A stretch of 37,207 bases of DNA from positions 1 through 37,207 of the forward strand of contig JAETRI010000034.1 of the NCBI GenBank assembly GCA_021770245.1, given 5' to 3'. The notes beneath the pieces are model-generated. The model searched no databases. It saw nothing but the letters and a program-made list of their open reading frames with translations, and had not been told where the DNA came from. Position 1 is the first letter of the stretch, and each line of letters starts with the position of its first letter. Below, in pieces: positions 5,679 to 31,003 of this stretch. The position numbers and the translations under genes are program-made. The DNA comes from Lachnospiraceae bacterium (lineage in GTDB: Bacteria > Bacillota > Clostridia > Lachnospirales > Lachnospiraceae).

Positions 5679-5700
5679 GAAAGTTTTCTTTGAATTGAGA

Positions 5701-5734
5701 GCCGCCTTGCGGCGGCAGAATGGGGGTTAAGATG
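5701..5734 (+). repeat. Hairpin-RBS leader module, copy 1 (subtype B)
   Basis: GCCGCC (5701-5706), loop TTGC, GGCGGC (5711-5716), then AGAATGGGGGTTAAG and the sulfatase start ATG at 5732. It belongs to a dispersed family with eight copies in this window, all oriented with the downstream gene. The subtype-B tail is shared with the copies before trmK and the DUF1385 gene. Confidence 0.75.
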
Positions 5735-7210
5735 GACAAAACAAATAGGCGCAATGTCATAATCGTATATGCGGATGATTTGGGATTCGGGGATTTAGGC
5801 TGCTACGGCAGTCACCGGATCAATACGCCCAATCTGGACCGGCTGTGCGAGGAGGGGCTTAAATTCACCAACGCTTATGCAACCTCTGCGGTATGTACGC
5901 CCTCCCGCTACAGCATTCTGACAGGACGGTACCCGTTTCGAAACAATAGGGCGCACATACTGCCGGGGAACGCAGGATGTATTATAGAGCGTGAGCTCGA
6001 CACCATGCCCCGGCTTTTTCAGCGGGCCGGATATCATACGGGGATAGTGGGGAAATGGCATCTTGGATTAGGAGACGGAAACAGCCCTATCGACTGGAAC
6101 CGGGAAATTAATTTAACCCCGATTGATCTTGGATTTGACGAATCCTTCATTTTTCCGGCGACGGCTGACCGGGTCCCCTGTGTTTATGTGGAAGGGCGTT
6201 CGGTTATGAATCTGGATCCGGAGGATCCCATTGAAGTATCATATGAAGACGAATGTCCGTTTGACGATATTCCGACGTATCACAAAAATCCGGAACTGCT
6301 GAAAATGTATTCTTCCCATGGCCATGATATGAGCATTGTGGGAGGCATCGGAAGGATCGGATATATGCGCGGCGGGAAAAAGGCGGTCTGGAAAGATGAG
6401 GAGCTGGCGGAAACCTTTCTGAACAGGGCAGTTCGTTTCATAGAGGAAAGCCAGGGCAGAAATCAGCCTTTCTTTTTATATTATGCGCTGCATCAGCCTC
6501 ACGTGCCCCGGGTACCGTCCGCCCGTTTCCGCGGAGCGACCGCACTGGGCCCGCGCGGTGATGTCATTGCCGAATTGGACTGGTGTGTCGGGGAATTGAT
6601 CAACAAACTGAAAGGGCTGGATATCTGGGAAAATACCATGATCATTTTTTCAAGTGACAACGGGCCGGTACTGGATGACGGATATGTGGACAGAGCCTTT
6701 GAACTGAACGGTACGCATCGGGCAGCGGGGCCGCTGCGCGGCGGAAAATACAGCAAGTTTGACGGGGGAACGAGGATTCCGTTTCTTGTGACATGCCCGA
6801 ATCTGGTTCGAAAGGGCGTATCCCATGCGCTGGTGAGCCAGGTGGATTTGTTTGCCTCCTTTGCGCATATGCTCGGTGTGCAGCTTACGCCGGACAGCGC
6901 GGTTGACAGCCAGGATATGTATGCAGCCCTGATCGGGGAGGATCCTGCCGGAAGGCAGGAGCTGATGGTGGAAGATGTGTCCTGCGGGAAAATGCTGCGG
7001 CGGGGGAACTGGACTTATCTTTCTCCAAGCGAGGGCCTGCCGTATATGGGCAACGTTCGGATTGAAACGGGTTTGTCCGAAGACCCGCAGCTGTACAATA
7101 TGGATTATGATATCGGGCAGCAGACAAATGTGGCATGGGATTATGAAGAGGTAGTAAAGGATATGGAAGAGCGCCTGCAGGCAATTATAAGGAGCAGGAG
7201 AACCCGATAG
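5732..7210 (+). CDS. Type I (formylglycine) sulfatase
   Basis: A 492-residue sulfatase of the alkaline-phosphatase fold that hydrolyses sulfate esters. The CTPSR motif at residues 55-59 supplies the cysteine that must be oxidised to formylglycine. Metal-binding acids are visible in YADDLGFGDLG (residues 13-23) and FSSDNGP (residues 306-312), and GKWHLG at 107-112 is also typical. There is no signal peptide, so it should act in the cytoplasm on imported sulfated sugars. The start at 5732 is preferred over in-frame ATG 5720 because GGGGG lies five bases before it and 5720 is part of the conserved leader module. The divergent LacI gene and operator suggest substrate induction. No sulfatase-maturating radical-SAM enzyme or sugar transporter is in the window, so maturation must come from elsewhere. 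The exact substrate cannot be told. Confidence 0.9.
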   Translation: MDKTNRRNVIIVYADDLGFGDLGCYGSHRINTPNLDRLCEEGLKFTNAYATSAVCTPSRYSILTGRYPFRNNRAHILPGNAGCIIERELDTMPRLFQRAGYHTGIVGKWHLGLGDGNSPIDWNREINLTPIDLGFDESFIFPATADRVPCVYVEGRSVMNLDPEDPIEVSYEDECPFDDIPTYHKNPELLKMYSSHGHDMSIVGGIGRIGYMRGGKKAVWKDEELAETFLNRAVRFIEESQGRNQPFFLYYALHQPHVPRVPSARFRGATALGPRGDVIAELDWCVGELINKLKGLDIWENTMIIFSSDNGPVLDDGYVDRAFELNGTHRAAGPLRGGKYSKFDGGTRIPFLVTCPNLVRKGVSHALVSQVDLFASFAHMLGVQLTPDSAVDSQDMYAALIGEDPAGRQELMVEDVSCGKMLRRGNWTYLSPSEGLPYMGNVRIETGLSEDPQLYNMDYDIGQQTNVAWDYEEVVKDMEERLQAIIRSRRTR

Positions 7211-7224
7211 CGGAAAGGAGAGGT

Positions 7225-7256
7225 ATAAGATTGAAAATCAAAATTTTCAATCTTAT
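7225..7256. terminator. Perfect AT-rich hairpin after the sulfatase gene
   Basis: A 14-bp perfect stem (ATAAGATTGAAAAT, 7225-7238, with its complement 7243-7256) around a CAAA loop lies 14 bp after the sulfatase stop. It has no T-run, so terminator function is uncertain. Its sequence resembles the AT-rich hairpins at 19442-19465 and 33990-34010. Confidence 0.5.
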
Positions 7257-7269
7257 GGATTTGGGCCTA

Positions 7270-7299
7270 TTCCCGTTTTGGGAAGACCCAAAACGGGAA
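7270..7299. terminator. Second perfect hairpin before the methyltransferase
   Basis: TTCCCGTTTTGGG (7270-7282) pairs perfectly with 7287-7299 around an AAGA loop, 13 bp after the first hairpin. No T-run follows. The two consecutive perfect hairpins may end the sulfatase transcript or structure the leader of the next gene. Confidence 0.5.
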
Positions 7300-7374
7300 A
7301 GGCATGGGTATAAGTATGATCACGATGTACTTAGCCGTTATCCGGCACGCTTGCGATGAGAAGGACGATTGACC

Positions 7375-8103
7375 ATGAAAAATGAATATGATAACGAAAA
7401 GTTTTTTGAAGAATACGGGAAAATGCCCCGCAGCAGAGACGGCCTGAGCGCTGCCGGAGAATGGCACCGGTTAAAGCCTTTGTTTCCTTCGCTCCGGGAG
7501 AAAACCGTCCTTGATTTGGGGTGCGGCTATGGCTGGCATTGTGCCTTCGCGGCAAAACAGGGAGCGGCAGGAGTGCTGGGGCTTGACTCGAGCATAAAAA
7601 TGATTGAGGAAGCAAAAAAGAGAAATGCAGGAAAACAAATCGAATACCGTGTCTGCGAAATAGAGGAATATGAGTACCCGGAATGTATGTGGGATTGTGT
7701 CGTTTCCAATCTGGCCCTGCACTATATTGAGGATATTGAGAAAATCTTTCAAATGGTACATAGGACATTGAAGCCGAAAGGCGTGTTCCTTTTTAACATG
7801 GAACATCCCGTTTTTACCGCAGGAGTCGGACAGGACTGGATTTATACAGAAGCGGGAGAGCCCCAATATTGGCCGGTTGATCGTTATTTCATTCCGGGAG
7901 AGCGAAACACACGCTTTTTAGGGTGCAGCGTAGTAAAACAGCATCACACACTCACACAGATATTGATGGGCTTACTGAATAACGGCTTTGCGCTTGAAGC
8001 TGTGGTGGAGGCGGAGCCGCCCGAAGAAATGATGGACGTTCCGGGAATGAAAGACGAATTACGCCGCCCAATGATGCTGTTGGTAAAAGCCATAAAAAAA
8101 TAG
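7375..8103 (+). CDS. Class I SAM-dependent methyltransferase
   Basis: A 242-residue methyltransferase of the small-molecule (UbiE/YcgJ-like) type. The SAM-binding motif is TVLDLGCGYGWHC near residues 45-57, followed by LGLDSS (motif II acidic end), a central VVSNLALHYIEDIE segment, and LKPKGVFLFNMEHP before the variable C-terminal substrate part. It is cytoplasmic with no membrane segment. The start at 7375 has AAGGA nine bases upstream; a TTG at 7369 in frame is too close to that site. The substrate is not evident. It sits between the sulfatase and a convergent MATE gene, separated from the sulfatase by two hairpins, so it is probably its own transcription unit. Confidence 0.85.
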   Translation: MKNEYDNEKFFEEYGKMPRSRDGLSAAGEWHRLKPLFPSLREKTVLDLGCGYGWHCAFAAKQGAAGVLGLDSSIKMIEEAKKRNAGKQIEYRVCEIEEYEYPECMWDCVVSNLALHYIEDIEKIFQMVHRTLKPKGVFLFNMEHPVFTAGVGQDWIYTEAGEPQYWPVDRYFIPGERNTRFLGCSVVKQHHTLTQILMGLLNNGFALEAVVEAEPPEEMMDVPGMKDELRRPMMLLVKAIKK

Positions 8104-8154
8104 ATTCCTGCGGCAGGGGAGGGCATGACCTTCTTATCGTATATAGATGATATG

Positions 8155-9486: not shown

Positions 9487-9568
9487 TTCCAGAGGCCTCC
9501 TTTTCTTTAAAACAGTCGTCGTCAGACTGACAGTTCCAGAAAGCAGATTGTTTTTTCCAATCGGCAGT

Positions 9569-9597
9569 ATTATAATTCGTAACAAGATATGTGTAAA
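9569..9597 (-). promoter_or_regulatory. Promoter of the MATE gene
   Basis: On the minus strand TTTACA (complement of 9592-9597), a 17-bp spacer and TATAAT (complement of 9569-9574). The region up to the LysR start at 9648 should also hold the LysR binding sites; I could not pick a single convincing T-N11-A box by eye. Confidence 0.75.
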
Positions 9598-9647
9598 ATA
9601 TAAATTCTGCGATTGTGATATATGAAATTGACATGTGAGGAACGTCA

Positions 9648-10553: not shown

Positions 10554-10581
10554 CGCAGGCGGGGGCTTTGACCCGCCTGCG
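10554..10581. terminator. GC-rich hairpin after the LysR gene
   Basis: CGCAGGCGGG (10554-10563) pairs perfectly with CCCGCCTGCG (10572-10581) around an 8-base loop and starts at the LysR stop codon. It lacks a T-run, so it may be a weak or rho-assisted terminator. Confidence 0.5.
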
Positions 10582-10783
10582 GGGTGCCTGAACCGCTGCC
10601 GGAATATGTCCGAATTTTGCCTGGCAGCCAAAGATTCATTGCATTTAAAAGGAGGAACGGATATACTATAAGCAATGCAGGCGGGCTGCCAAGACAGGCG
10701 GAAGGGAAGGACGGGAATGACAGGGAAAATCGGCATCGGAAATCAGGGCCGTTCATACATTTGGCTCGTGCCGGATCCTGCCA
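10582..10783. other. Spacer without a supported gene
   Basis: I see no credible gene here. An open frame from 10584 has no ribosome binding site and overlaps the promoter and leader of the next gene. About 24 bases around 10602-10624 nearly repeat 2294-2317 (two mismatches), which may mark an old shared sequence. Confidence 0.4.
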
Positions 10784-10816
10784 CGGCTTGCGAAAGCCGC
10801 AGGCATATGTTAGAAT
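10780..10816 (+). promoter_or_regulatory. Promoter of the GH13 gene with an inverted repeat on its -35 box
   Basis: TTGCGA (10788-10793), a 17-bp spacer and TAGAAT (10811-10816). CGGCTT (10784-10789) and AAGCCG (10794-10799) flank a GCGA loop and overlap the -35 box, with TGCC/GGCA outside. That could be an operator for a repressor encoded elsewhere. Confidence 0.6.
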
Positions 10817-10841
10817 GATTTCAATGGATGGTGAATGGAAT

Positions 10842-10875
10842 GCCGCCTGACGGCGGCAGATTGAGAGGAAAAATG
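10842..10875 (+). repeat. Hairpin-RBS leader module, copy 2 (subtype A)
   Basis: GCCGCC (10842-10847), loop TGAC, GGCGGC (10852-10857), then AGATTGAGAGGAAAA and ATG at 10873. Compared with the rpoD copy the spacer has TTG where others have ATG. Confidence 0.75.
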
Positions 10876-12753: not shown

Positions 12754-12799
12754 AGAAGATCATGGGGATAGCGGGAGCCGGATGCGGCATGTCGGTTAG

Positions 12800-15961
<3,162 letters not shown>

Positions 15962-15992
15962 AAGAGGCCGCCGGAGCGGCCCGCAGGACATC

Positions 15993-16021
15993 AAAAAGAG
16001 GCCGCTTCGGCGGCCTCTTTT
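15993..16021. terminator. Bidirectional terminator between GH2 and phosphoesterase genes
   Basis: AAAGAGGCCGC (15995-16005) pairs perfectly with GCGGCCTCTTT (16010-16020) around a TTCG loop, with A-runs on the left and T-runs on the right, so it can stop transcripts from both sides. The stop codon of the leftward phosphoesterase gene lies within its right edge. Confidence 0.9.
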
Positions 16022-16883
16022 ACGATGACAGACCCGCTTCTTTCAGGGACTGCCGCCAGTACTTTTCGGGGATATCGGGCCAATGGCATGCACCTTCGCT
16101 TTCTTTGCATAGTTCCATGGCCCGGATCAGAGGGCCGGAATGATCCGGCGTGCCGTACCGCAGGAGATGCTGCGTGATTTGGCACCAGCAGGGCGCCTTT
16201 TCATTAAGACCGGTGGTATGCATTTCATCGATTACGGCTTCCACGTCATAGTCCAGACTTTGAAAATCGGGTATAAAACGGCTGTTCTCTCCCCGGAGGA
16301 TCAGAAACTGGGCTTGTCCGCCGCTGCCGGAGGGCATACCGACGGAGCCCGGATTCAGCGCCTGCTTTTCTCCGTGCCGGATCATTCCCTGCCTGTGGGT
16401 ATGGCCAAACAGAATATAAGGATGGATATTTCTCTCCATGAGGGCCAGGGTATCGGGGCAGTTTGGCTGCATTTTTTCGTTGACCCGGTTCGGAGAGCCG
16501 TGACACAGCGTCATGGGCGGCAGCCCGGGAAAGGCGAGCTCCATTTTGTAATCCAGGCTTTCGAAGAAATCCAGATCTGTGGGAAGCAGATTGTGGTAAG
16601 TATAAAAAAGGCATCCCGTGGTGGAATCATATTCCCGCCAGCCCTTTTCTTTGCTCTTCCTGTAATTGATCCAATATTCTTCTTTATTCCCCTTTATAAA
16701 ATAACAGGAATAGCTTTCTTTCAGGTCATATAGGATTTCCAGCGTCTTGCGCGGAGAGGCCAGCTCCCCGTTATAATCGCCCAGGAAGAGAAAGGTACGT
16801 ACGTTTTGGGCCAAAGCCGCGTCGATACACCGCTTCAGGGCAACATAGTTGCTGTGGATGTCGGAAATAACTGCGATCTGCAT
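16020..16883 (-). CDS. Calcineurin-like metallophosphoesterase
   Basis: A 287-residue YfcE-type metallophosphoesterase, a dinuclear-metal hydrolase of phosphomono- or diesters. Metal-site motifs in order: SDIHSN (7-12), FLGDYNG, GNKEEYW, CHGSPNR and GHTHRQG. The third motif is GNKE, not the GNHD/E of classical members; related small family members also vary here, so activity is likely but the substrate is open. It is a soluble protein of simple one-domain length plus a C-terminal extension of about 70 residues. The start at 16883 follows GAGAGGA in a leader module; an in-frame ATG lies 12 bases upstream inside the module. It is convergent with the GH2 gene and upstream of nothing else, so it is probably monocistronic. 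Confidence 0.85.
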   Translation of the reverse strand: MQIAVISDIHSNYVALKRCIDAALAQNVRTFLFLGDYNGELASPRKTLEILYDLKESYSCYFIKGNKEEYWINYRKSKEKGWREYDSTTGCLFYTYHNLLPTDLDFFESLDYKMELAFPGLPPMTLCHGSPNRVNEKMQPNCPDTLALMERNIHPYILFGHTHRQGMIRHGEKQALNPGSVGMPSGSGGQAQFLILRGENSRFIPDFQSLDYDVEAVIDEMHTTGLNEKAPCWCQITQHLLRYGTPDHSGPLIRAMELCKESEGACHWPDIPEKYWRQSLKEAGLSS

Positions 16884-16914
16884 GGTTCCTCTCATTCTGC
16901 CGCCGTCCGGCGGC
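16881..16914 (-). repeat. Hairpin-RBS leader module, copy 4 (subtype A, minus strand)
   Basis: In gene orientation: GCCGCC, loop GGAC, GGCGGC (complement of 16899-16914), then AGAATGAGAGGAACC and ATG at 16883. This is the only minus-strand copy in the window and it again points with its gene. Confidence 0.75.
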
Positions 16915-16977
16915 TTTTCGTTCAGAGGCATTTGTGCGGCAGCTTAAATGCCGGGTTTGCCCTGTGAGAAAAAACTC

Positions 16978-17006
16978 TTTCTATTTTCAATAAAATAGTA
17001 TATAAT
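16978..17006 (+). promoter_or_regulatory. Probable rho promoter
   Basis: Perfect TATAAT at 17001-17006; at 17-bp spacing the -35 position is TTTCTA (16978-16983), a weak match. It lies 330 bp upstream of rho, which implies a long leader. Confidence 0.55.
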
Positions 17007-17335
17007 TAGAAAAGCAAAGTCAAGCTTTGCATCTATATATCAGAAAACATATCTCGTTGGTGTACAGGATACTCCTGTATGCCATCAGGCAGGCACGGAC
17101 GGGGCAATGCTGTATTTGGCTCCGGCAGGGCCGGTTTTCCAGATTGAATCACCACATTTTATCAGACGTAAGAAGTTTGGATGTAAACTTCCAAACTTAC
17201 TATTGGCAGCAGTACCGCGGGCTCTGCCTGCGGTATGCAGGGGTATAAAAGAAATACCGGACGTGTTTTCAGGAAAATGAATGCGGACTATATTCCGGAT
17301 TCGTAAATCTGCGGGAGAAAGCAGGGAGGAACAGC
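17007..17335 (+). promoter_or_regulatory. Long structured leader of rho
   Basis: No supported gene lies in these 330 bases. Inverted repeats include TACAGGA/TCCTGTA (17063-17079, perfect, loop TAC), AAGTTTGG/CCAAACTT (17173-17198) and TACCGC/GCGGTA around 17213-17235. The rho ribosome binding site GGGAGG is at the end. Rho is autoregulated at its leader in several bacteria; the structures here fit such control but that is an inference. I did not recognise a known riboswitch. Confidence 0.45.
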
Positions 17336-19432: not shown

Positions 19433-19572
19433 CGGGAGCAAGAATGAAAATTGAAATTTTCATTCTCCCTGATTGAAATGCGTGCCGTGCACGCGGACGG
19501 GAGCAAGAATGAAAATTGAAATTTTCATTCTCCCTGATTGAAATGCGTGCCGTGCACGCAGACGGGAGCAAG
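19431..19572 (+). repeat. 65-bp tandem repeat between rho and MATE gene
   Basis: Units 19431-19495 and 19496-19560 are identical except for the last base; a third starts at 19561 and is cut after GACGGGAGCAAG. Each unit holds GGGAG, a perfect AT-rich palindrome (GAATGAAAATT with its complement), CTCCC and a GC palindrome (GCGTGC CGT GCACGC). The first unit overlaps the rho stop codon by two bases. The last GGGAG serves as ribosome binding site for the MATE gene. Confidence 0.9.
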
Positions 19573-19582
19573 TAAAGAAATG
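19530..19582 (+). promoter_or_regulatory. Leader able to sequester the MATE ribosome binding site
   Basis: CTCCC (19530-19534) can pair with GGGAG (19564-19568), enclosing the stem TGCGTGC (19544-19550) / GCACGCA (19554-19560). GGGAG is 11 bases before the MATE start. The same layout, with a different inner stem, precedes the PHP gene at 34012-34062. Regulation by masking the ribosome binding site is an inference. Confidence 0.5.
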
Positions 19583-20950: not shown

Positions 20951-20957
20951 AAGATTC

Positions 20958-20986
20958 TTTTCAGGCTGTATCGATCGTGTTATAAT
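20958..20986 (+). promoter_or_regulatory. Promoter of the FtsA-like gene
   Basis: TTTTCA (20958-20963), a 17-bp spacer and a perfect TATAAT (20981-20986), 55 bp before the start codon. Confidence 0.7.
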
Positions 20987-21040
20987 TAACGTTTAGCAAA
21001 AAACAACAAGACACTTTGCGAAGGGTTCAGGAGGACGCAT

Positions 21041-23251
21041 ATGGCTGGCGGAGTGACGAAGAGGACGCAGGGAAAAAAGTCGCAGGCAAGGGGTACCAAG
21101 GCGACGCAGAAGAAGAGCACCGGGGTGCAGACGAGAAGGATGCCTTCCCAGGCGGAGAACGTGGTATTGGCCATGGACATCGGGACGCGCAGCATCATCG
21201 GTATGGTGGGCCGCGTGGAGGAGGGCCGTGTGAAGATCATTGCCATAGAGCGGGAAGAGCACGCGGAGCGGTCGATGATCGACGGGCAGATCGAGAACAT
21301 AGACAAGGTATCAGCCCTGGCCGAAAAGGTCAAAAAGAGGCTGGAGGACAAGGTGCGCTTCAAGCTGAACCGGGTCTGTGTGGCGGCCGCGGGACGGGCC
21401 CTCCGGACGAAGAGGGCGGAATACGAGATGGAGCTTCCGGGTACTCAGCTGATCGATGATGAGATCATAAGCCGTCTGGAGGCGGGGGCGATCGGACGGG
21501 CCGAGGAGGCCTTCGATGCGGAAAGGGAAGCGGGAAAGGACACCAGGCGGTTCTATCTGGTGGGATATACGGTCTGTCAGTATTTTCTGGACCAATACCC
21601 CATATCCAGCCTGAAGGATCATAGGGGACATCATATCAAGGCGGATCTGATCGCCACCTTCCTGCCCAGCGAGGTGGTGGAGAGCCTTTATACCACCATG
21701 AACAAAATCGGGCTGGAGGTGGCCAGCATCACGCTGGAGCCGATTGCGGCTATCAATGCGGCGATCCCGGAAAATCTGCGCCTGCTGAACCTGGCCCTGG
21801 TGGATATCGGAGCGGGCACGTCGGATATTGCGGCCTGTACGGGAGGCAGCGTGACGGGATATACCATGGCTACCGTGGCGGGAGACGAGGTCACGGAGAC
21901 GCTCATGCGGGAATATCTGGTGGACTTTCCCACGGCGGAGGGCATCAAGGCCAGGATCGGCCAGGAGGAAGAGATTTCCTATACGGATATCCTGGGATTT
22001 GAGCGGAAGCTTTCCGCACAGCAGGTGGCCGGATGCATCCAGAAGACCTCAGACACCCTGTGCGCAGAGATTGCGGACAAGATCGTGGAGATCAACGGAG
22101 GCGCTCCGTCGGCCCTGTTTCTGGCAGGAGGGGGGAGCAAACTGGCAGGGCTGCGGGATTCGCTGGCGTCGGCCCTCCAGATGGATGCCAGCCGGGTGGC
22201 CATCGCAGGGAATTATTTCCAGGCCAATGCCTATTCCGAGGAATATGATCTGAACAATCCGGAATATGCCACACCGCTGGGCATTGCCATTTCCTCCGGC
22301 CTGAACCTGATCAATGACAGCTTCCGGGTGATCTTAAACGGCCGGCCTGCCAAGCTGTTCCGCAGCGGCAGCTTCACGGCGCTCAACCTGTTGATGATGA
22401 ACGGATACAGTTTCCGGGACGTGCTGGGCCGTTCCGGCGCGAATCTGACCGTGACGGTGAACGGGCAGCGGAAGGTATTTTACGGCACGCCTGCCCGCCC
22501 GGCCAGCCTGTTGATCAATAAGCAGGAGGGCCAGTTATCCGCTGTCATCCATGCGGGCGACAACATTGATTTCGAACCTGCCGTTTCCGGCGCTGCTGCC
22601 AAAGCATGCCTGCAGGATGTGGAGGGTGCCCGGGAAAGCAGGGATATCACACTGAACGGGGTACGTGTCCCTTTGCACACACCGCTGAAAAACGGGGATG
22701 TGATACGGATGGAGCCGCCCGGAGGGCAGGAGCCGGCCGGAGAGCCGCGGCAGGAGGAAGGCACAAAGGAAGAGAATGAACCGGCCGTGACGGCAGGGCG
22801 GGAAGAGGAAGATCAGGCAGGGAGGACGGAAGAGGACAAAGAAACGCAGAAGGCAGCGGGCGGGCAGGAAAGCCCGGAAGCGGTCATCCCGTCCCAAGCC
22901 GTCGCAGGAGAGCCCGCCCCGCGGCCTGTGGAGCCCCGGGAAATCCCGCAGGACGAGCCGGTCGTGACATCTTCGAAGGAAGCCTCCGCACAGGAGCCCG
23001 CCGGGAAGGAGGGCGCGCCCGTTCGGACGCAGTCCCGGGAAATCCGGTTCCGGCTGAACGGCATGCCTCTTGACCTTCCTCGGAAAGAAGACGGCAGCCC
23101 GTATTATCTGATGGATTTGATCCAATATTCCGGAATCGACCTGGATCATCCAAGGGGGACGGTCCTGCTGCTCGTGAACGGTATGCCGGGGATGTTCCAG
23201 CAGGCTTTGCGCGAGGGGGACCGGGTGGATATTAAAGAAGAACTGAGCTGA
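21041..23251 (+). CDS. FtsA/PilM-like actin-fold ATPase with C-terminal beta-grasp-like modules
   Basis: A 736-residue protein. Residues 1-38 are basic and probably disordered. Residues 40-400 form an actin-fold ATPase of the FtsA/PilM type: phosphate-1 motif VLAMDIGTRSIIGMV (42-56), an SHS2-like 1C region, phosphate-2 NLALVDIGAGTSDIA near 254, and adenosine motif SALFLAGGGSKLAG near 360. Residues about 420-555 contain strand-rich repeats ending in DNIDFEP and GDVIRMEP; an acidic Glu/Pro-rich linker follows (555-660), and then a last module (FRLNGMPLDLP to GDRVDIKEEL). The latter resemble beta-grasp (ThiS/TGS-like) folds; that reading is mine. FtsA is about 420 residues and ends in a membrane helix, which I do not see, so the function may not be classical FtsA. 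The start follows CAGGAGG. Confidence 0.8.
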   Translation: MAGGVTKRTQGKKSQARGTKATQKKSTGVQTRRMPSQAENVVLAMDIGTRSIIGMVGRVEEGRVKIIAIEREEHAERSMIDGQIENIDKVSALAEKVKKRLEDKVRFKLNRVCVAAAGRALRTKRAEYEMELPGTQLIDDEIISRLEAGAIGRAEEAFDAEREAGKDTRRFYLVGYTVCQYFLDQYPISSLKDHRGHHIKADLIATFLPSEVVESLYTTMNKIGLEVASITLEPIAAINAAIPENLRLLNLALVDIGAGTSDIAACTGGSVTGYTMATVAGDEVTETLMREYLVDFPTAEGIKARIGQEEEISYTDILGFERKLSAQQVAGCIQKTSDTLCAEIADKIVEINGGAPSALFLAGGGSKLAGLRDSLASALQMDASRVAIAGNYFQANAYSEEYDLNNPEYATPLGIAISSGLNLINDSFRVILNGRPAKLFRSGSFTALNLLMMNGYSFRDVLGRSGANLTVTVNGQRKVFYGTPARPASLLINKQEGQLSAVIHAGDNIDFEPAVSGAAAKACLQDVEGARESRDITLNGVRVPLHTPLKNGDVIRMEPPGGQEPAGEPRQEEGTKEENEPAVTAGREEEDQAGRTEEDKETQKAAGGQESPEAVIPSQAVAGEPAPRPVEPREIPQDEPVVTSSKEASAQEPAGKEGAPVRTQSREIRFRLNGMPLDLPRKEDGSPYYLMDLIQYSGIDLDHPRGTVLLLVNGMPGMFQQALREGDRVDIKEELS

Positions 23252-23565
23252 TTTCCCAGAAAAAGGGACCCCGGAATACACCCATACGGCACCCGTGTAC
23301 GATGCAGGATCCGCCGTATTTCGCTTTCGGTTCCTTTTATGGTACATAGAAAAAAGGAATTGGGCTTTTGACGTGGAATAATAAAGTAGTGGAGTGCCGC
23401 GAAACGGCGCGGGGATGTTAAAAACGAAAGGAATTTGACGCGTCCGTCCGTTCAGGAAAGACTGCGTCCAAAAGACGGTCGGACGGAATGGCCGGAGGGC
23501 GGCTGCGGTATGGGGCCGCAGGCGGCCAAAGGGTATCAGGCATATGAGATAGAAGGGGTAGGCGG
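23252..23565 (+). other. Intergenic region with terminator and GC hairpins
   Basis: The first 90 bases hold a terminator (listed separately). The rest has no gene. It contains CCGTCCG/CGGACGG arms around 23445-23490 and a CTGCGG/CCGCAG hairpin around 23505-23523, close to the dGTPase-like gene, so its leader is likely structured. I did not find a convincing promoter, although one must lie here if the terminator is effective. Confidence 0.5.
23261..23338 (+). terminator. Long terminator after the FtsA-like gene
   Basis: AAAAGGGACC (23261-23270) pairs with GGTTCCTTTT (23329-23338) with one G-T pair, and inside it ATACGGC (23284-23290) pairs with GCCGTAT (23313-23319). The structure ends in a T-run and lies ten bases after the stop codon. 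Confidence 0.7.
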
Positions 23566-24576
23566 ATGGCGGTAATTCGTGAGAATTTGGAAAAGTGGGA
23601 GTCGGAGTATCTGAGCCCGTATGCCTCCCTGAGCAGGAATTCCCTGGGAAGGATGAAGGACGAGGAGCCCTGTGATATCAGGCCCGTTTTTCAAAGGGAC
23701 CGGGACCGGATCCTTCACTGCAAGTCGTTCCGCAGGCTGAAGGATAAGACCCAGGTATTCCTGGCGCCCCAGGGGGATCATTACCGGACGCGGCTGACCC
23801 ATACGCTGGAGGTTTCTCAGAATGCGAGAACCATAGCCAGGGCGCTTCGGCTGAACGAGGAGCTGGTGGAGGCCATCGCCCTCGGCCACGACCTGGGGCA
23901 TACGCCCTTCGGCCACGCGGGGGAGAGGGCGCTGGGCCGGGTATGCCCCTATGGGTTCGAGCACAGCGAACAGAGCGTGCGTACCGTGGACGTGCTGGAA
24001 AAGGACGGGCAGGGGCTCAACCTGACCTTTGAGGTGCGCGACGGGATCCGCAACCACCAGACAAAGGGGATGCCGGCGACGCTGGAAGGCCGGATCGTGC
24101 GGATTTCGGACAAAATCGCCTACATCCATCACGACTGCGACGACGCTATCCGGGCGGGGATCCTGAAAGAAGAGGATATCCCCCGGGAGATACAGGAGGT
24201 GGCGGGGCGGACCACCGGGGAACGGCTGGACCGGTTTATCCACGATATCGTGACGAACAGCTTCGGGAAAAACGAGATTGCCATGTCCCCTGCCGTGGAG
24301 GAAGCCATGAAAAAGCTGCGCCGTTTTCTCTTTGAACACGTTTACACCAATCCCCATGCCAAGAGCGAGGAGGGAAAGGCGGAGATCCTGGTGGAAACGC
24401 TTTACGATTATTATCTCCATCATATGGAAAAACTGTCTCCGGAGCTGCGGGGGCTGATGGAGAGAGGGGAGGCAAAGGAGCGGCTGGTATGCGATTATAT
24501 CGCGGCGATGACGGACCGCTTCGCTATCGCCCGGTATGAGGATATCTATATTCCCAAAAGCTGGGTGGTCATGTAG
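23566..24576 (+). CDS. dGTPase-like HD-domain triphosphohydrolase
   Basis: A 336-residue HD-domain protein of the deoxyguanosinetriphosphate triphosphohydrolase-like group, which hydrolyses dNTPs to nucleoside and triphosphate. Visible are FRRLKDKTQVF, the first metal ligand in RLTHTLEVSQ, the HD pair in ALGHDLGHTPFGHAGE, and the later Asp in RISDKIAYIHHD. It is of the shorter Firmicutes type, not the 500-residue E. coli Dgt. The start has GAAGGGG upstream. It directly precedes dnaG and rpoD, the usual order in Clostridia, so it may link dNTP supply to initiation of replication. That link is an inference. Confidence 0.9.
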   Translation: MAVIRENLEKWESEYLSPYASLSRNSLGRMKDEEPCDIRPVFQRDRDRILHCKSFRRLKDKTQVFLAPQGDHYRTRLTHTLEVSQNARTIARALRLNEELVEAIALGHDLGHTPFGHAGERALGRVCPYGFEHSEQSVRTVDVLEKDGQGLNLTFEVRDGIRNHQTKGMPATLEGRIVRISDKIAYIHHDCDDAIRAGILKEEDIPREIQEVAGRTTGERLDRFIHDIVTNSFGKNEIAMSPAVEEAMKKLRRFLFEHVYTNPHAKSEEGKAEILVETLYDYYLHHMEKLSPELRGLMERGEAKERLVCDYIAAMTDRFAIARYEDIYIPKSWVVM

Positions 24577-24644
24577 CGGCGAAAAGGGGTGAAGACCTCG
24601 GATTTGGTGACGTTTTTTGTCCCAAAGCTTTCGCTGATTAAAAT

Positions 24645-24678
24645 GCCGCTTACGCGGCGGAATGAGAGGCAGCATGTG
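24645..24678 (+). repeat. Hairpin-RBS leader module, copy 5 (subtype A)
   Basis: GCCGC (24645-24649), loop TTAC, GCGGC (24654-24658), then GGAATGAGAGGCAGCAT and the dnaG start GTG at 24676. Here the module's ATG is out of frame with the gene. Confidence 0.75.
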
Positions 24679-26448
24679 TATTATCCGGATGAGCTGATAG
24701 AAGAGGTGAGGACAAGAAACGATATTGTGGAGGTGGTCTCTGGGTATGTGCACCTGCAGAGAAAAGGCGCGAACTATTTCGGTCTGTGTCCTTTCCACAA
24801 CGAGAAATCCCCCTCCTTTTCCGTATCGCCCGGAAAGCAGATGTATTACTGCTTTGGCTGCGGAGCGGGCGGAAATGTGTTCACCTTCCTGATGGAATAT
24901 GAGAACCAGACCTTTCCGGAGGCCGTGAAAACGCTGGCGGACCGGGCGGGCATCAGTCTGCCCGAGGCGGAGTATTCCGAAGAAGCGAGGCGGGCGGAGG
25001 GAAAGCGGGCCCGGCTTCTGGAGATCAATAAGGAAGCGGCGAAGTATTTCTATTTTCAGCTGCGCGCAAAACAGGGGGAGGCAGGATACCGTTATCTGAG
25101 GGGCCGGGAGCTTACGGATGAAACCATCAGGAAATTCGGGCTGGGCTTTGCCAACAAGACCAGCGACGATCTTGTCTCCTATCTGAGAAGCAGGGGGTAT
25201 CCGCAGGACCTGATCCGGGATGCAGGACTGTGCAACGTGGACGAAAAGCAAGGGATGTATGACAAATTCTGGAACCGGGTTATGTTCCCCATAGAGGATA
25301 TCAACCACCGGGTCATCGGTTTCGGCGGCCGGGTGATGGGAGACGGAACGCCGAAATACCTGAATTCGCCGGAGACGCAGATTTTCGATAAGAGCCGGAA
25401 TCTGTACGGGCTGAATTTTGCCAGGACATCCCGAAAGGGGAACATCATCCTCTGTGAAGGATATATGGATGTGATCGCCATGCATCAGGCCGGATTCGAC
25501 CAGGCGGTGGCATCCCTGGGAACCGCTTTCACGCCCGGACAGGCGGGCTTACTGAAGCGGTATACGAAGGAGGTTCTGCTTTCCTACGACAGCGACGGGG
25601 CGGGGGTAAAAGCGGCCCTGCGCGCCGTCGGTATCCTGAAGGAGGCCGGGCTTTCCGGTAAGGTGATCAGCCTGGAGCCCTATAAGGATCCGGACGAATT
25701 CATCAAGAATCTGGGGAAAGAGGCCTTTCAGGAGCGGATCGATCAGGCAGAAAACAGCTTCCTCTTCGAGATCCGGATGATGGAGCGGGAATACAACTTA
25801 TCCGATCCGGAGGAAAAAACCGGATTCCATCGGGAAATCGCCAGGAAGCTTTGCGAGTTCCCGGAGGAGGTGGAGCGGGAGAATTACATAGAGGCGGTGG
25901 CGGAAAAGTACCACATCGGTTATGAAAGCCTGCGGAAGCTGGTGGGGAGCACGGCGGCCCGGACAGGGCTGGTAAGGCCCGTGGAGAGGCCGAAATCCGG
26001 AATACAGAAAAAGAATACGCCAAAGGAAAACGATAAACGCACCCAGCGGCTGCTTCTAACCTGGCTGGTGGAGGAACCCCAGGTTTATCCGGCCGTTTCC
26101 CGGTTCCTTTCCCCGGAGGACTTTACGGAGGAGCTGTACCGCAAGGTGGCATCCAGGCTCTTTGAGGGGCTGGAAAAGGGAGAGGTGAATGCCGCGGCGG
26201 TGATCAGCATGTTTCCGGAGGAAGAGGAGCAGAGGGAGGTTGCCTCCCTTTTCAATACGAAGCTGATCGAGCCCGAAACCAGGCAGGAGAAGGAAAAGGC
26301 ATTCCACGATATCCTGGTCCGGGTCAAAAGAATCAGCTATGAATACAACACCAGCCGCATGGGCGGGGATATGGAGGCGCTAAACCGCGTGATTGCGGGA
26401 AAAAAGGCCCTGGAAGAACTTAGCAAAACGCATATTTCCATTGAATGA
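24676..26448 (+). CDS. dnaG: DNA primase DnaG
   Basis: A 590-residue primase that makes RNA primers at the replication fork. The N-terminal CHC2 zinc finger uses C38, H41, C59 and C62 (CPFHNE, YYCFGCGAGGN). The catalytic core has the TOPRIM acids E261 (CEGYMD) and D305/D307 (YDSDGAG). A C-terminal helicase-interaction domain follows, from about residue 455 after a charged linker. Length is normal for Firmicutes. A GTG start at 24676 is chosen: GAGAGG is seven bases upstream and the protein then begins YYPDELIEEVR, as in relatives. A longer in-frame frame from 24589 would include the leader hairpin. It forms the dgt-like/dnaG/rpoD group. Confidence 0.95.
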   Translation: MYYPDELIEEVRTRNDIVEVVSGYVHLQRKGANYFGLCPFHNEKSPSFSVSPGKQMYYCFGCGAGGNVFTFLMEYENQTFPEAVKTLADRAGISLPEAEYSEEARRAEGKRARLLEINKEAAKYFYFQLRAKQGEAGYRYLRGRELTDETIRKFGLGFANKTSDDLVSYLRSRGYPQDLIRDAGLCNVDEKQGMYDKFWNRVMFPIEDINHRVIGFGGRVMGDGTPKYLNSPETQIFDKSRNLYGLNFARTSRKGNIILCEGYMDVIAMHQAGFDQAVASLGTAFTPGQAGLLKRYTKEVLLSYDSDGAGVKAALRAVGILKEAGLSGKVISLEPYKDPDEFIKNLGKEAFQERIDQAENSFLFEIRMMEREYNLSDPEEKTGFHREIARKLCEFPEEVERENYIEAVAEKYHIGYESLRKLVGSTAARTGLVRPVERPKSGIQKKNTPKENDKRTQRLLLTWLVEEPQVYPAVSRFLSPEDFTEELYRKVASRLFEGLEKGEVNAAAVISMFPEEEEQREVASLFNTKLIEPETRQEKEKAFHDILVRVKRISYEYNTSRMGGDMEALNRVIAGKKALEELSKTHISIE

Positions 26449-26536
26449 GGATAACAATAGAAACAAGTGCAAAAGGGCGGAGAGCGCCCCGGCCGTAAAA
26501 CCGGAGCGTGAAGAAATGCGCGCCCTGATGTAAAGA

Positions 26537-26568
26537 CCGCCTGCGGCGGCAGAATGAGAGGAAAGATG
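26537..26568 (+). repeat. Hairpin-RBS leader module, copy 6 (subtype A)
   Basis: CCGCC (26537-26541), loop TGC, GGCGG (26545-26549), then CAGAATGAGAGGAAAG and the rpoD start ATG at 26566. An in-frame ATG at 26554 lies within the module. Confidence 0.75.
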
Positions 26569-27753
26569 GCAATCAAGGCACAGGAAAAGACGGAAGAGGG
26601 AAAGAAGGAAAATGTCCAGGCCGAGATGACTCCCGAGGAGCGGGCAGCGGTGGAGGCCCGTTTCCTGGAGAAGGTCAAAGGGATCATCCAGATCGCAAGA
26701 AAGAAGAAGAATATCCTGGAATATCAGGAAATCAGCGACTATTTTGCGGACATGCAGTTAAACGAGGATCAGTTTGACCGTCTGTTGGAGCTTTTGGAGC
26801 ACAGCAACGTGGATGTGCTGCGGATCACGGGGGATGAGGACGATATTCCGGACGAGGAGATCATCCTTTCGGAAGAGGACGAGGTGGATATGGAAAATAT
26901 CGACCTTTCCGTTCCTGACGGCATCAGCATCGAGGATCCGGTGCGCATGTACTTAAAAGAAATCGGCAAAGTGCCGCTTCTGTCTGCGGAGGAGGAAATC
27001 GATCTGGCCCAGAGGATGGAGACCGGGGACGAGGAAGCCAGGAAGCGTCTGGCCGAAGCGAACCTGCGCCTGGTGGTCAGCATTGCCAAGCGTTATGTGG
27101 GACGTGGCATGCTGTTTTTGGATCTGATCCAGGAAGGGAACCTGGGGCTGATCAAAGCGGTGGAGAAGTTTGATTACCGGAAAGGGTATAAATTTTCCAC
27201 CTATGCCACCTGGTGGATCCGCCAGGCGATCACCCGGGCCATTGCCGACCAGGCCAGGACGATCCGGATTCCGGTGCACATGGTGGAAACCATCAACAAG
27301 CTGATCCGGGTGAGCCGGCAGCTTCTGCAGGAGCTGGGGCGTGAGCCGGCGCCGGAAGAGATCGCGGAGGAAATGGGAATGCCCGTGGAGCGGGTGAGGG
27401 AAATCCTGAAAATTTCCCAGGAACCCGTGTCCTTAGAAACCCCCATCGGGGAAGAGGAGGACAGCCATCTGGGCGATTTTATCCAGGACGACAACGTGCC
27501 CGTGCCTGCGGACGCCGCCGCTTTTTCCCTGCTCAAGGAGCAGCTAAACGAGGTGCTCGGCACGCTGACGGAACGGGAACAGAAGGTGCTGCGTCTGCGT
27601 TTCGGACTGGATGACGGACGCGCGAGAACCTTGGAAGAAGTGGGAAAGGAATTCAATGTAACCAGGGAGCGTATCCGTCAGATCGAGGCAAAGGCCCTGC
27701 GGAAGCTGCGCCATCCCAGCCGCAGCCGGAAGCTGAAGGACTATCTGGACTGA
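26566..27753 (+). CDS. rpoD: Primary sigma factor RpoD (SigA)
   Basis: A 395-residue sigma-70 that directs RNA polymerase to housekeeping promoters. In order: region 1.1-like N-terminus, region 1.2 ([20 protein letters not shown]), region 2 ([20 protein letters not shown], then [18 protein letters not shown]), region 3 ([19 protein letters not shown]) and region 4 with the -35 recognition helix ([20 protein letters not shown]). The C-terminus SRKLKDYLD is standard. The start at 26566 follows AGAGGA; the in-frame ATG 12 bases upstream belongs to the leader module. The 117 bp after dnaG contain this module, so rpoD translation may be set separately from dnaG. Confidence 0.96.
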
Positions 27754-27787
27754 GCGGCCTTACGCAGAGGCTTCCTCTGGACAAAGA

Positions 27788-27830
27788 GCCGCATCGCGGC
27801 GGCAGAATGGCGGTTAAAGGGTTTCGATGA
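27788..27830 (+). repeat. Hairpin leader module, copy 7 (subtype B), upstream of trmK
   Basis: GCCGC (27788-27792), loop ATC, GCGGC (27796-27800), then GGCAGAATGGCGGTTAAAGG. Unlike other copies it is not joined to the gene start: its ATG at 27807 opens a seven-codon frame (MAVKGFR) that ends at 27828-27830, 50 bases before trmK. Confidence 0.65.
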
Positions 27831-27879
27831 TCGACTCCGGCCGGAGGGGCGTCGAAGCGGCGGAGTGTGGAAAACGGAT

Positions 27880-28668
27880 ATGGAATTATCAAAACGGCTT
27901 CATATGGTGGCCTCCATGGTGGAACGGGGCAGCGTGGCGGCGGATGTGGGATGCGACCACGGCTATGTATCCGTCTGGCTGGTGCAGGAGGGGATCTGCC
28001 CCCATGTGTTCGCGGCGGACGTAAATCGGGGGCCTCTCGCGCGGGCCAGGGAGCATGTGGAGGAAGCCGGTCTGACCTCTTACATAGATCTGATCCTTTC
28101 GGACGGGCTGGAGGGGCTGAAGGAAAAACCGATCGATACCCTGCTGGCGGCCGGGATCGGCGGCCGGCTGGCAGCGCGTATCCTGCAAGAAGGGGCCGAA
28201 AAGCTGGCCGGAATGAAACGGGTCGTCCTGCAGCCCCAGTCCGAACCCTGGCTGGTAAGGAGGGCCCTGGAAGAACTGGGATATGAGATCACGGATGAGG
28301 ATATGGTCCGGGAAGAGGGAAAGTTTTATGGAGCGCTGAAAGCGTCCAACCGCCGCTTCCTGTCGGAAACGGAACAAAAGAAAGGAAGGGCGGCGAAAAG
28401 GAGGCCGGAGGGCATGGATCTGACGGAAGCGCAGTGGATGCGGCTGTCGGAGCGATACGGCCCTTTTCTGATAAGAAAGGCACATCCCGTGCTGAGGGAC
28501 TGCCTGGAGGAAACGCTGCAAAAGCACGCGGGGATCCGTGAGAAAATCGGCCGTAATGCCTCCTGCATAAAGACGGCGGCGCGGCTTCATGCGCTGGAAG
28601 AGGAGGATGCGTGCCTGGATGCAGTATTGGGCTTTATGGATGCCGGATGGAAGAATGAATGCGGATGA
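27880..28668 (+). CDS. trmK: tRNA (adenine-22-N1)-methyltransferase TrmK
   Basis: A 262-residue enzyme that methylates N1 of A22 in tRNAs. The N-terminal Rossmann domain has the SAM motif AADVGCDHGYVSVWL and the segments FAADVNRGPLARA and LLAAGIGGRLAARIL. The C-terminal part is a helical domain typical of the family. The start at 27880 (MELSKRLHMVASMV) agrees with relatives. A GTG at 27865 in frame adds five residues, and neither has a strong ribosome binding site. Position right after rpoD is usual in Firmicutes. The common partner gene nif3/yqfO is not present: the next gene is the nucleoside kinase, 60 bp downstream. Confidence 0.9.
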   Translation: MELSKRLHMVASMVERGSVAADVGCDHGYVSVWLVQEGICPHVFAADVNRGPLARAREHVEEAGLTSYIDLILSDGLEGLKEKPIDTLLAAGIGGRLAARILQEGAEKLAGMKRVVLQPQSEPWLVRRALEELGYEITDEDMVREEGKFYGALKASNRRFLSETEQKKGRAAKRRPEGMDLTEAQWMRLSERYGPFLIRKAHPVLRDCLEETLQKHAGIREKIGRNASCIKTAARLHALEEEDACLDAVLGFMDAGWKNECG

Positions 28669-28728
28669 GGAAGCGCCTGCGCGGGTTTTGCAGAGCGGGG
28701 TTGAGACTCCCGATGTATGGAGGTGGCT

Positions 28729-30426
28729 ATGGGAACAATAAAAATAACGATAAACACAACACAAAAAGAATACAGGACTCCGCTGACCTATGAACAGCTT
28801 GCCGAGGAATATCAGCAAAAATATGCACACAGGATCGTGCTGGCGGTGGCCAATCAAAAGATCAGAGAGCTTCATAAGAATATCACCAGGGATGCGGAGG
28901 TTGCCTTTGAAACCATTGCGGACCGGGTGGGACACGACACGTATGTCCGCAGCGCCTGTATGCTTCTGATGAAGGCGCTCAGCGATGTGGCCGGATCCCC
29001 TGTTGGGGGAGAGGCCGCCATGGAATATACGGTGGGCCGGGGATATTACTGCATGCCGAAGGGAAGCCTGGCACAGCGGGTCGTACGGATGCAGGAGGGC
29101 GGAGAGAGGATTGACGAAGCCTTTGTGGCTCAGGTGAAGGAGAGGATGCTCCGCCTGGTGGAGGCGGATTTGGCCATCGTGAAAAGGGCTTACCCCACGG
29201 ACGAGGCGATCGAATTGTTCCGTGCGCAGGGAATGGACGATAAGGTGCGCCTGTTCCGTTACCGCCGCGGCTCCTTTATCAACGTATACTGCCTGGACGG
29301 CTATTATGATTATAATTACGGTTATATGGTACCCAGAACAGGATATCTGGAATATTTTGATCTGATCCCCTATAAAGGAGGGATGATGCTCCTGCTTCCG
29401 GACAGGACCCGCCCGGAGGAGGTGGATGCCTTTGAACCCCGTGAAAAGTTTTTTGAAACCCTGATGCGCTCCGGCAGCTGGGGAGGCAAAATGGGGATCG
29501 AGACCGTGGCCGACTTAAACGACCGGATCTGCGGCGGGGAGCTGTCGGAACTGATCCTGGTACAGGAGGCGCTGCAGGAACGCAGGATTGCCCAGATCGC
29601 GGGAGAGATCGCCGATCGGCAGAACGTGAAATTCGTCATGATAGCAGGCCCCTCTTCCTCCGGGAAAACCACCTTCTCCCACCGCCTGTCCGTCCAGCTT
29701 AAAACCCACGGACTGACCCCCCATCCCATCGCGGTGGACGATTATTTCGTGAACCGGGAGGATACCCCCCTGGATGAGAACGGAAATTATAATTTTGAGT
29801 GCCTGGGAGCAGTGGATGTGGAGCAGTTTAACAGGGATATGTCTGCCCTGCTCGCCGGGGAAAAGGTCAAGATGCCCCGGTTCAATTTCAAGACAGGCCA
29901 GAGGGAGATGAACGGGGATACCCTTCAGCTCGGAAGGGAAGACATTCTGGTGATCGAAGGGATCCACTGCCTGAACGACAAGCTCTCCCACTCCCTGCCC
30001 CTTTCCAGCAAATACAAAATTTATATCAGTGCCTTAACCAGCCTGAACGTGGACGACCATAACAGGATATCCACCACGGACGGAAGGCTGATCCGGCGCC
30101 TTGTGCGTGATGCCAGGACAAGAGGGGCTTCCGCCACCCATACGCTGCGCATGTGGGATTCCGTGAGGAGAGGGGAGGAGGAGAATATTTTCCCTTTCCA
30201 GGAGAGCGCGGATGCCATGTTCAATTCGGCGCTGATCTATGAACTGGCGGTGTTAAAACAGTTTGCGGAGCCGCTCCTATACAGCGTGGAGCGCAGTGCG
30301 CCGGAATATTTCGAGGCAAAGAGGCTGCTGAAGTTCCTGGAATATTTCCTGGGTGTGAGCAGCGAAGGGCTGCCGGTCAATTCCATCATCCGGGAATTCG
30401 TTGGGGGAAGCTGCTTCAGGGTGTAA
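28729..30426 (+). CDS. TGS-domain uridine kinase-like nucleoside kinase
   Basis: A 565-residue fusion typical of Clostridia. Residues 1-60 are a TGS-like domain. Residues about 60-230 resemble the second additional (editing-associated) domain of threonyl- and alanyl-tRNA synthetases, including HDTYVRSACMLLMKAL and GRGYYCMPKG. Residues about 300-500 are a uridine kinase/phosphoribulokinase-type domain with P-loop GPSSSGKTTFSHRLS and Walker B-like DILVIEGIHCLND. The expected reaction is ATP-dependent phosphorylation of a nucleoside; the synthetase-like part suggests RNA or nucleotide sensing, unproven. The start at 28729 follows GGAGG by five bases; an ATG at 28717 lies before that site. A strong terminator follows, ending the dgt-like to kinase unit. 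Confidence 0.88.
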   Translation: MGTIKITINTTQKEYRTPLTYEQLAEEYQQKYAHRIVLAVANQKIRELHKNITRDAEVAFETIADRVGHDTYVRSACMLLMKALSDVAGSPVGGEAAMEYTVGRGYYCMPKGSLAQRVVRMQEGGERIDEAFVAQVKERMLRLVEADLAIVKRAYPTDEAIELFRAQGMDDKVRLFRYRRGSFINVYCLDGYYDYNYGYMVPRTGYLEYFDLIPYKGGMMLLLPDRTRPEEVDAFEPREKFFETLMRSGSWGGKMGIETVADLNDRICGGELSELILVQEALQERRIAQIAGEIADRQNVKFVMIAGPSSSGKTTFSHRLSVQLKTHGLTPHPIAVDDYFVNREDTPLDENGNYNFECLGAVDVEQFNRDMSALLAGEKVKMPRFNFKTGQREMNGDTLQLGREDILVIEGIHCLNDKLSHSLPLSSKYKIYISALTSLNVDDHNRISTTDGRLIRRLVRDARTRGASATHTLRMWDSVRRGEEENIFPFQESADAMFNSALIYELAVLKQFAEPLLYSVERSAPEYFEAKRLLKFLEYFLGVSSEGLPVNSIIREFVGGSCFRV

Positions 30427-30433
30427 ATTTGTG

Positions 30434-30520
30434 TAACAGGCAAGCCACCCCGCAGGCCCCCGGACGCCGAAGCGCACAGGGAAGGATCCTGCAGGGTGGC
30501 TTGCCTGTTATAAATTTTTC
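30434..30520 (+). terminator. Very long perfect hairpin and T-run after the kinase gene
   Basis: TAACAGGCAAGCCACCC (30434-30450) pairs perfectly over 17 bp with 30494-30510. Inside, GCAGG (30452-30456) pairs with CCTGC (30488-30492) across one mismatch. AAATTTTT follows the stem. It is a terminator, although the stem is about twice the usual length. Confidence 0.8.
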
Positions 30521-30540
30521 CGAAAGATGGGAGAATATGC

Positions 30541-30569
30541 TTGCAATGCACCGGATGCTATGTTACAAT
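30541..30569 (+). promoter_or_regulatory. rpmE promoter
   Basis: TTGCAA (30541-30546), a 17-bp spacer and TACAAT (30564-30569), about 95 bp before the rpmE start. Confidence 0.75.
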
Positions 30570-30664
30570 AAAAAAGCTGTTTATGGCAGCTGCCCCGTGG
30601 GAAACGGGTTCGCGGATGAGAACAAAGTTATATTTTATGACAGGGAAATAGAAGAGGTGAAATC

Positions 30665-30877
30665 ATGAAAGAAGGAATCCATCCTGCCTATTATCAGGCA
30701 ACCGTAACCTGCAACTGTGGGAACACATTTGTAACGGGTTCTACCAAACCGGAAATTCACGTGGAAGTCTGCTCCAAGTGCCATTCGTTCTACACCGGTC
30801 AGCAGAAAGCGGCGCAGGCACGCGGACGTATTGATAAGTTCAACCGGAAATATGGTATGAATTCATCAAACGAATAA
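30665..30877 (+). CDS. rpmE: 50S ribosomal protein L31, zinc type
   Basis: A 70-residue L31 that bridges the ribosomal subunits. It starts [16 protein letters not shown] as in relatives and keeps both Cys pairs of the zinc-binding form (TCNCGN and [11 protein letters not shown]), so it is the zinc-dependent paralogue and not the zinc-free YtjA type. The C-terminus [12 protein letters not shown] is standard. GAGGTG lies upstream of the start. It has its own promoter and terminator. Confidence 0.96.
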
Positions 30878-30889
30878 GAATTACCAAAA

Positions 30890-30924
30890 AAGGTTGGGGT
30901 GTGAGCATCTCAACCTTCTTTTTT
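30890..30924 (+). terminator. rpmE terminator
   Basis: AAGGTTG (30890-30896) pairs with CAACCTT (30911-30917), followed by a T-run to 30924, 13 bases after the rpmE stop. Confidence 0.85.
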
Positions 30925-30969
30925 AACAGGAAGACGGCCGGGGGCCGCAGTCGGCCCGGGGAATTGCGA

Positions 30970-31003
30970 GCCGCCCTACGGCGGCAGAATGGCGGTTAGG
31001 ATG
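30970..31003 (+). repeat. Hairpin-RBS leader module, copy 8 (subtype B)
   Basis: GCCGCC (30970-30975), loop CTAC, GGCGGC (30980-30985), then AGAATGGCGGTTAGG and ATG at 31001. The tail is almost identical to copies 1 and 7. Confidence 0.75.

Follow-up and report, generated by a model that had tools for sequence, protein, structure and literature searches.

We examined a 37,207-nucleotide contig of a Lachnospiraceae bacterium (GenBank assembly GCA_021770245.1, contig JAETRI010000034.1; hereafter the window), in which a short GC-rich hairpin recurs upstream of functionally unrelated genes. Judged by DnaG, which is 95% identical to that of the metagenome-assembled genome L053 and 84% identical to that of Candidatus Eisenbergiella stercoravium, the source organism is a member of the Lachnospiraceae near Eisenbergiella. 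A first-pass annotation made from the sequence alone had listed eight copies of the hairpin, and all eight are present, each in sense with its gene. Pfam confirms seven of the gene names given there (sulfatase, GH2, phosphoesterase, dnaG, rpoD, trmK and DUF1385). The statement that seven copies continue into a ribosome binding site (RBS) and start codon holds with one correction: the start of dnaG is most likely the GTG at 24676, in a frame differing from that of the ATG at 24674, because the protein then begins like its relatives. The trmK copy runs into a further imperfect palindrome, and the next candidate start of that gene is GTG 27865, 55 nt past AATG.

The exact core of the module (GCCGCC-N4-GGCGGC-AGAATG), which contains neither an RBS nor a gene start, has 52 matches in the 4.28-Mb source genome (G000), 27 forward and 25 reverse, and the reversed pattern used as a control has none. 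In 35 of the 52, AATG is followed by the start codon of a sense open reading frame (ORF) of 75 codons or more. The distance between the two is nearly fixed, being 9 nt in 31 copies and 10 nt in four. Ten further copies run into a palindrome that opens another unit. A covariance model of the module (R1: 14 nt, the stem and AGAATG, built from 46 sequences) identifies 132 copies in the genome at E<=0.01, probably a lower bound because only 150 candidates were scored. The model has 22 matches at E<1e-3 in a contiguous sample of this genome (392,592 bases, 292 called genes) made up of the window, contig C118 and 140 kb of contig C71. Matches were read by eye wherever the gene caller had picked a different start; 19 lie directly before a sense start codon, two precede a further gene-leading palindrome, and one, which is weak, is at neither place. 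The density is uneven, with 8 copies per 37 kb in the window versus 2 matches (E<1e-3) in the 140 kb of C71.

The association with gene starts is also found when sequence is ignored and every GC hairpin with a stem of 5 or more and a loop of 3–6 is scored by how far its 3' end lies from the called start. A hairpin lies 12–17 nt before the start in 34 of the 292 genes of the sample versus 1.6 in shuffles, and in 18 of 120 genes versus 0.6 in contig C1 (164 kb) of the sister species G011. The corresponding counts are 1 of 62 genes (shuffled 0.2) for five Eisenbergiella loci and 6 of 1092 (shuffled 2.8) for 74 other Lachnospiraceae loci. Every one of these comparison loci is centred on the dnaG region, so their genes were not drawn at random. 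A first measurement at this distance had given 54 versus 2.8. Hairpin position is therefore a property of the lineage and not of one sequence alone. Concentration at gene starts and non-random orientation, on which the first-pass annotation had staked its proposal, were both found in the 392-kb sample and among the 52 exact copies.

By sequence, the module is one class (class 1) of a larger set of dispersed repeats that fall into about five classes, each terminated by an RBS of its own. Units are roughly 45–140 bp in size and consist of short palindromes with a GC hairpin last, followed by the RBS; they often open with a palindrome starting NTGAAA or similar (TTGAAAAA..TTTTTCAA, GTGAAATC..GATTTCAC). 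Class 1 has two common tails, AGAATG-AGAGG.. and AGAATG-GNGGTTA.. (or G(N)GGTTA..), and many copies continue on the upstream side as part of a longer composite. Class 2 has the form TGATTTGNNT-GCGCGC..GCGCGC-AGATGGGAG, class 3 the form TTGGCGGCAG-TATCGCAAGC..GCTTGCGATA-TGCAGGGGTATA, and classes 4 and 5 end in ..GCGGCATGGAGG and ..GGGCATGGGAATAAAT, respectively. Among 103 class-2-like sites picked by their flanks, 52 are fully paired over 6 bp, taking the best of three loop lengths, versus 16.1 when the 3' arms are redealt. The main stems (GCGTGC/GCACGC, 18 sites; GCCCGC/GCGGGC, 16; GCGCGC/GCGCGC, 11) differ from one another on both sides. Another 34 of the 103 sites have fewer than five pairs, and several of these resemble chance matches in coding DNA. 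In class 3, exactly three variable bases separate TATA from ATG in all five own copies with a called start and in three G011 copies; two of the five G011 matches were left out, as the ATG three bases on is probably not a gene start. Features of these classes in the window are collected in Table 1.

Table 1. Hairpin units and related features in the window (SD, Shine-Dalgarno sequence)
Feature	Position	Strand	Remarks
Companion hairpin H2 (AATTTGTGCC-AGGTAACAC-GGAA-GTGTTACC-..GCACGAAAGTT), class-1A composite upstream of the sulfatase gene	5640..5685	+	Composite shared by many of the 52 loci
Sulfatase gene: class-1 hairpin, tail GGGGTTAAG, ATG	5701..5734	+	
Class-1 hairpin, AGATTG, SD AGAGG and ATG of the gene labelled GH13 in the first-pass annotation	10842..10875	+	
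Class-1 variant (5-bp stem, AGAACG), SD and ATG of the GH2 gene	12850..12880	+	
Class-1 hairpin, SD AGAGG and ATG of the phosphoesterase gene	16881..16914	-	
Class-3 cassette (palindrome, TACCGCGGGC..GCCTGCGGTA, TGCAGGGGTATA)	17187..17247	+	The gene at 17336 begins 88 nt farther on
Two tandem class-2 units (ATGAAAATT..AATTTTCAT palindrome, GCGTGC/GCACGC hairpin, GGACGGGAGCAAG)	19444..19579	+	End at the ATG of gene 19580
dnaG leader repeat; class-1 variant hairpin at 24645-24664, SD AGAGG	24598..24675	+	Ends at the GTG start 24676
Class-1 hairpin (3-base loop), SD AGAGG and ATG of rpoD	26537..26568	+	Kept in G011, loop and stem letters changed
Class-1 hairpin and tail GCGGTTAAAGG before trmK, then another imperfect palindrome	27788..27820	+	
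DUF1385 gene: class-1 hairpin, tail GCGGTTAGG, ATG	30970..31003	+	G011 has GCCTGC..GCAGGC-ATGGAGGTTAGG before the same ATG
Gene at 34060: class-2 cassette (..CTCCCTCTGATTTGTATGCGCGCC..), ATG	33996..34062	+	

Comparison with G011 indicates that the units before a given gene are often exchanged. Positions 16001-36000 of the window align with G011 in eight main syntenic pieces of 81–89% identity and a ninth of 73%. The class-1 cassettes of dnaG and rpoD are kept with changed loop or stem letters, and the dnaG leader repeat has 14 further matching places in G011. The DUF1385 gene and the gene at 19580 have different G011 hairpins before the same start codon, the L027/L203 pair has class 1 versus class 2 ahead of the same start codon, and the G011 orthologue of the putative GH13 gene has no such hairpin at that place. 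Of 88 start codons compared between orthologs, 8 have a perfect hairpin in both species, 7 in our genome alone, 10 in G011 alone and 63 in neither. This co-occurrence is above chance (p 0.002), which partly reflects common descent. Seven ortholog pairs carry different numbered classes (positions 111826, 144665, 153456, 177721, 178531, 193385 and 206516 of C118), and at least seven carry the same class (128083, 176456, 179552, 18925, 141058, 196777 and rpoD); classes were assigned by simple patterns, and when the ortholog listing was re-read by eye some rows proved to be mislabelled (for example, two class-1 leaders marked 4).

Several sites contain a unit in one of the two species and lack it in the other. 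At site 10, our genome has a 74-bp class-3 unit between GGAACA and GAAATG where G011 reads GGAACAGAAATG, and at site 6 it has a class-1A composite between the stop codon and ATG where G011 reads TAATG. Two less clean cases are empty in our genome, namely site 5, where G011 has class 2 and our sequence is similar to a class-4 tail, and site 15, where G011 has class 3 and the upstream gene ends differently. Units are also stacked. G011 site 31 has a class-1 unit with a full RBS, then class 2, then ATG; G011 site 16 has class 3, then class 2, then ATG, and the same site in our genome has class 1B followed by class 5. Together, the filled and empty sites and the stacked units point to insertion just 5' of the start codon, with older RBSs left behind.

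The junction with the start codon was compared in 27 ortholog pairs in which one or both species carry a cassette and identity at positions -45 to -12 is less than 60%. Base -1 agrees in 67% of these pairs versus 30% in shuffled pairs, and none of 2000 shuffles is as high. Agreement is 41% at -2 (not significant), 59% at -3, 63% at -4, 48% at -5 and 33% at -6, and positions -1, -3, -4 and -5 are above shuffles. Farther upstream, only -9 and -15 beat shuffles, at about 0.03–0.04. Leaders diverge in 27 of 32 pairs with a recognised cassette versus 29 of 56 without one (p 0.003).

Sequence comparison thus establishes that the units are present in many copies, oriented in sense, terminated by an RBS, located at the start codons of unrelated genes and stacked head to tail, and that the sister species frequently carries a different class, or no unit, at the same start codon. 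The units are probably mobile or copied mini-elements that each bring an RBS to a start codon. They would spread by insertion or copying to within about 1–5 nt 5' of the start codon, where the RBS of the new unit would take over and the gene would stay translated; insertion at the RBS-start junction would be tolerated because the unit restores an RBS. Repeated landings would strand older RBSs upstream and build arrays, and the stems may be kept as a folded DNA or RNA form, either for movement or in the mRNA. A bolder proposal, which we advance tentatively, is that the system targets the translation start itself. Several classes would then land a few bases 5' of the start with an RBS, perhaps directed there by the initiation site or by mRNA on the ribosome, as might happen via an RNA intermediate; the agent would lie outside the families tested here, and the leaders of more than one tenth of the sampled genes would have been rewritten.

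A number of observations weigh against a mini-element origin. Seven of the 52 exact copies are neither at a start codon nor before another unit; one of these is cut by a contig end, one precedes a 31-codon ORF and one precedes an imperfect palindrome. The class-3 cassette at 17187 breaks the start-codon rule, and site 34 has a native RBS downstream of its class-2 unit. A MITE of a DDE transposase would have terminal inverted repeats and a target-site duplication; no target duplication is seen at site 10, the sole clean simple site, and the ends of the other classes are not fixed. Part of the junction statistic comes from same-class pairs and hence from common descent, and the leaders that diverge include the 29 without a recognised cassette. 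Neither a transposase nor another agent was found among the families sought (Y1, IS110 and RVT_1), and no other transposase family was searched. Furthermore, the source genome, like the others compared, is a metagenome assembly, G011 is the sole species compared in depth, and the program that called the gene starts was home-made and favours SD motifs.

The alternative that fares best, although we consider it unlikely, is a cis-regulatory mRNA leader. In this case the hairpin 5' of the RBS would be bound by an RNA-binding protein or nuclease or would guard the 5' end of the mRNA, selection would keep the hairpin, and copies would arise through recombination or rare duplication. The strict sense orientation, the near-fixed spacing to the start, the compensated changes that keep the stems, the same class retained by dnaG, rpoD and others in both species, and the correlated presence between species (8 shared versus 7 and 10 unshared) are all consistent with such a role. 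However, the class before the same gene often differs between species, the genes have no common function, and the elements are absent from 148 genomes of other genera. The hairpin also brings no gain in the predicted openness of the RBS and start (0.529 versus 0.511 with hairpin letters shuffled, p 0.30; 0.496 for genes without a hairpin), and a function as an RBS opener was accordingly rejected on the folding predictions. The first-pass annotation had offered both a mobile mini-element that delivers an RBS and a shared binding site for an RNA-binding protein or nuclease. The former agrees well with the dispersed copies, the filled and empty sites, the stacks and the exchange of classes. The latter finds no direct support, given the differing classes, the eight genes without a shared function and the unchanged RBS openness, and it keeps a small share of probability because compensated changes preserve the stems. 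An in-frame leader peptide was considered as well, since a spacing of 9 puts AATG in frame with the start, and was set aside because the spacing is 10 in 4 of the 35 copies, the frame of DnaG differs, and the congeners combine AGAAAG with a spacing of mostly 8–13 nt.

It is considerably less probable that the units are REP/BIME-like elements moved by a Y1 (IS200/IS605 or RAYT) transposase and now at start codons by happenstance. REP elements lie near gene 3' ends and have a defined tetranucleotide tag and a link to Y1 transposases in the portion of the literature on which we draw (PMC3733652). Like the present units, REP/BIME elements are short palindromes that are extragenic, clustered and high in copy number (PMC3733652), and the missing target duplication at site 10 would fit them. 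However, the present units are at gene starts, and PF01797 is not matched in the two genomes richest in units, G000 and G011, although these assemblies are 96–97% complete and one other copy family may have been lost. PF01797 does have matches in G001, G002 and G012, which are the poorest in units, as well as in the array-bearing G007, G009 and G010. The lack of a Y1 transposase in both element-rich genomes disfavours a REP/RAYT origin. IS110 has no match in G000, G011 or G007, and reverse transcriptase (RVT_1) has three in G000 and none in G011; Y1, IS110 and reverse transcriptase are thus not supported as movers.

Chance GC palindromes or intrinsic terminators can hardly account for the units, as the first-pass annotation had already argued: some linked palindromes (TTGAAAAATGACC..GGTCATTTTTCAA) resemble bidirectional terminators by eye, but for class 1 the reversed-pattern control is empty, 34 genes stand against 1.6 in shuffles, and the hairpin is followed by an SD and start codon with no T run.

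Rfam has no matches in the window at gathering score, and for 20 array loci it reports only a T-box (RF00230) at L169:407-663, which is upstream of the unit array and not at the units. We found no description of such elements in the open-access literature, subscription papers being outside the search. Small interspersed repeats are known in bacteria, and those compared here avoid gene starts or bring no RBS as far as the excerpted sources describe them. The TAACTGA direct repeats of marine Beggiatoaceae, some of which occur in other phyla, are mostly forward and lie within several nucleotides upstream of the starts of unrelated genes (PMC4679880). They are like the present units in being dispersed upstream of the start codons of functionally unrelated genes, but they are 7-bp tandem repeats, mostly without an SD and with no hairpin described in the excerpted text, whereas the present units bring an SD (PMC4679880). 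The BOX, RUP and SPRITE repeats of Streptococcus pneumoniae, judged parasitic, share small size, interspersed and clustered occurrence and nested insertion with the present units; in the part of the account used here they have no link to start codons and supply no RBS (PMC3049150). Mini-elements that land at start codons with an RBS of their own, if confirmed, would provide a natural route to rewire translation and to separate overlapping genes, an unusual choice of target and ready-made leader parts. The units are relevant to start-codon annotation and to leader evolution in this gut lineage.

The pattern GCCGC-N6-GCGGCAGAATG has 57 matches in our genome, 17 in G011, one in each of six further congeners and none in five, and it has no match across 48 genomes of other genera. 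At E<=0.01, R1 finds 132 copies in our genome, 84 in G011, 20–44 in eight congeners and 0–2 in G001, G002 and G012, which are the three largest genomes. When 150 genomes of the family, with no congeners among them besides these two, were searched at E<=1e-4 and under stricter filters, matches came from G000 and G011 alone. A 135-bp stretch (companion and class-1 hairpin, tail and about 20 gene bases) has no match in phage and plasmid records. One exact class-1 match in the viral contig L133 was taken for chance because it has no SD tail, the nearest ORF start is about 90 nt on and no other unit pattern matches.

Long intergenic rows of several different palindromic units are found at L048:1540-1900, L028:1459-1700 and L008:1290-1580, and they include extra unit types such as ..ATTTGTGCCGC-AGGCGGCCCAAAT.. 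and GACATGAAATCGC..GCGATTTCATGTC. In L052, L033 (- strand), L182 (- strand) and L186, units start directly after the TAG stop of the upstream gene or the ..TTAG of the previous unit, hinting at a short left target.

In 20 congener stretches the tail is mostly AGAAAG with a spacing of mostly 8–13 nt, and several have tandem hairpins with a step of about 86–90 bp that end at an SD and start codon. Tandem three-hairpin arrays precede genes in other Eisenbergiella at L169:702-909, L170:814-934, L171:343-558 and L163:760-973, where the stems differ and stay palindromic. In three congeners (L156, L164 and L165), orthologous promoter-leaders contain one or two units downstream of the same TATAAT box.

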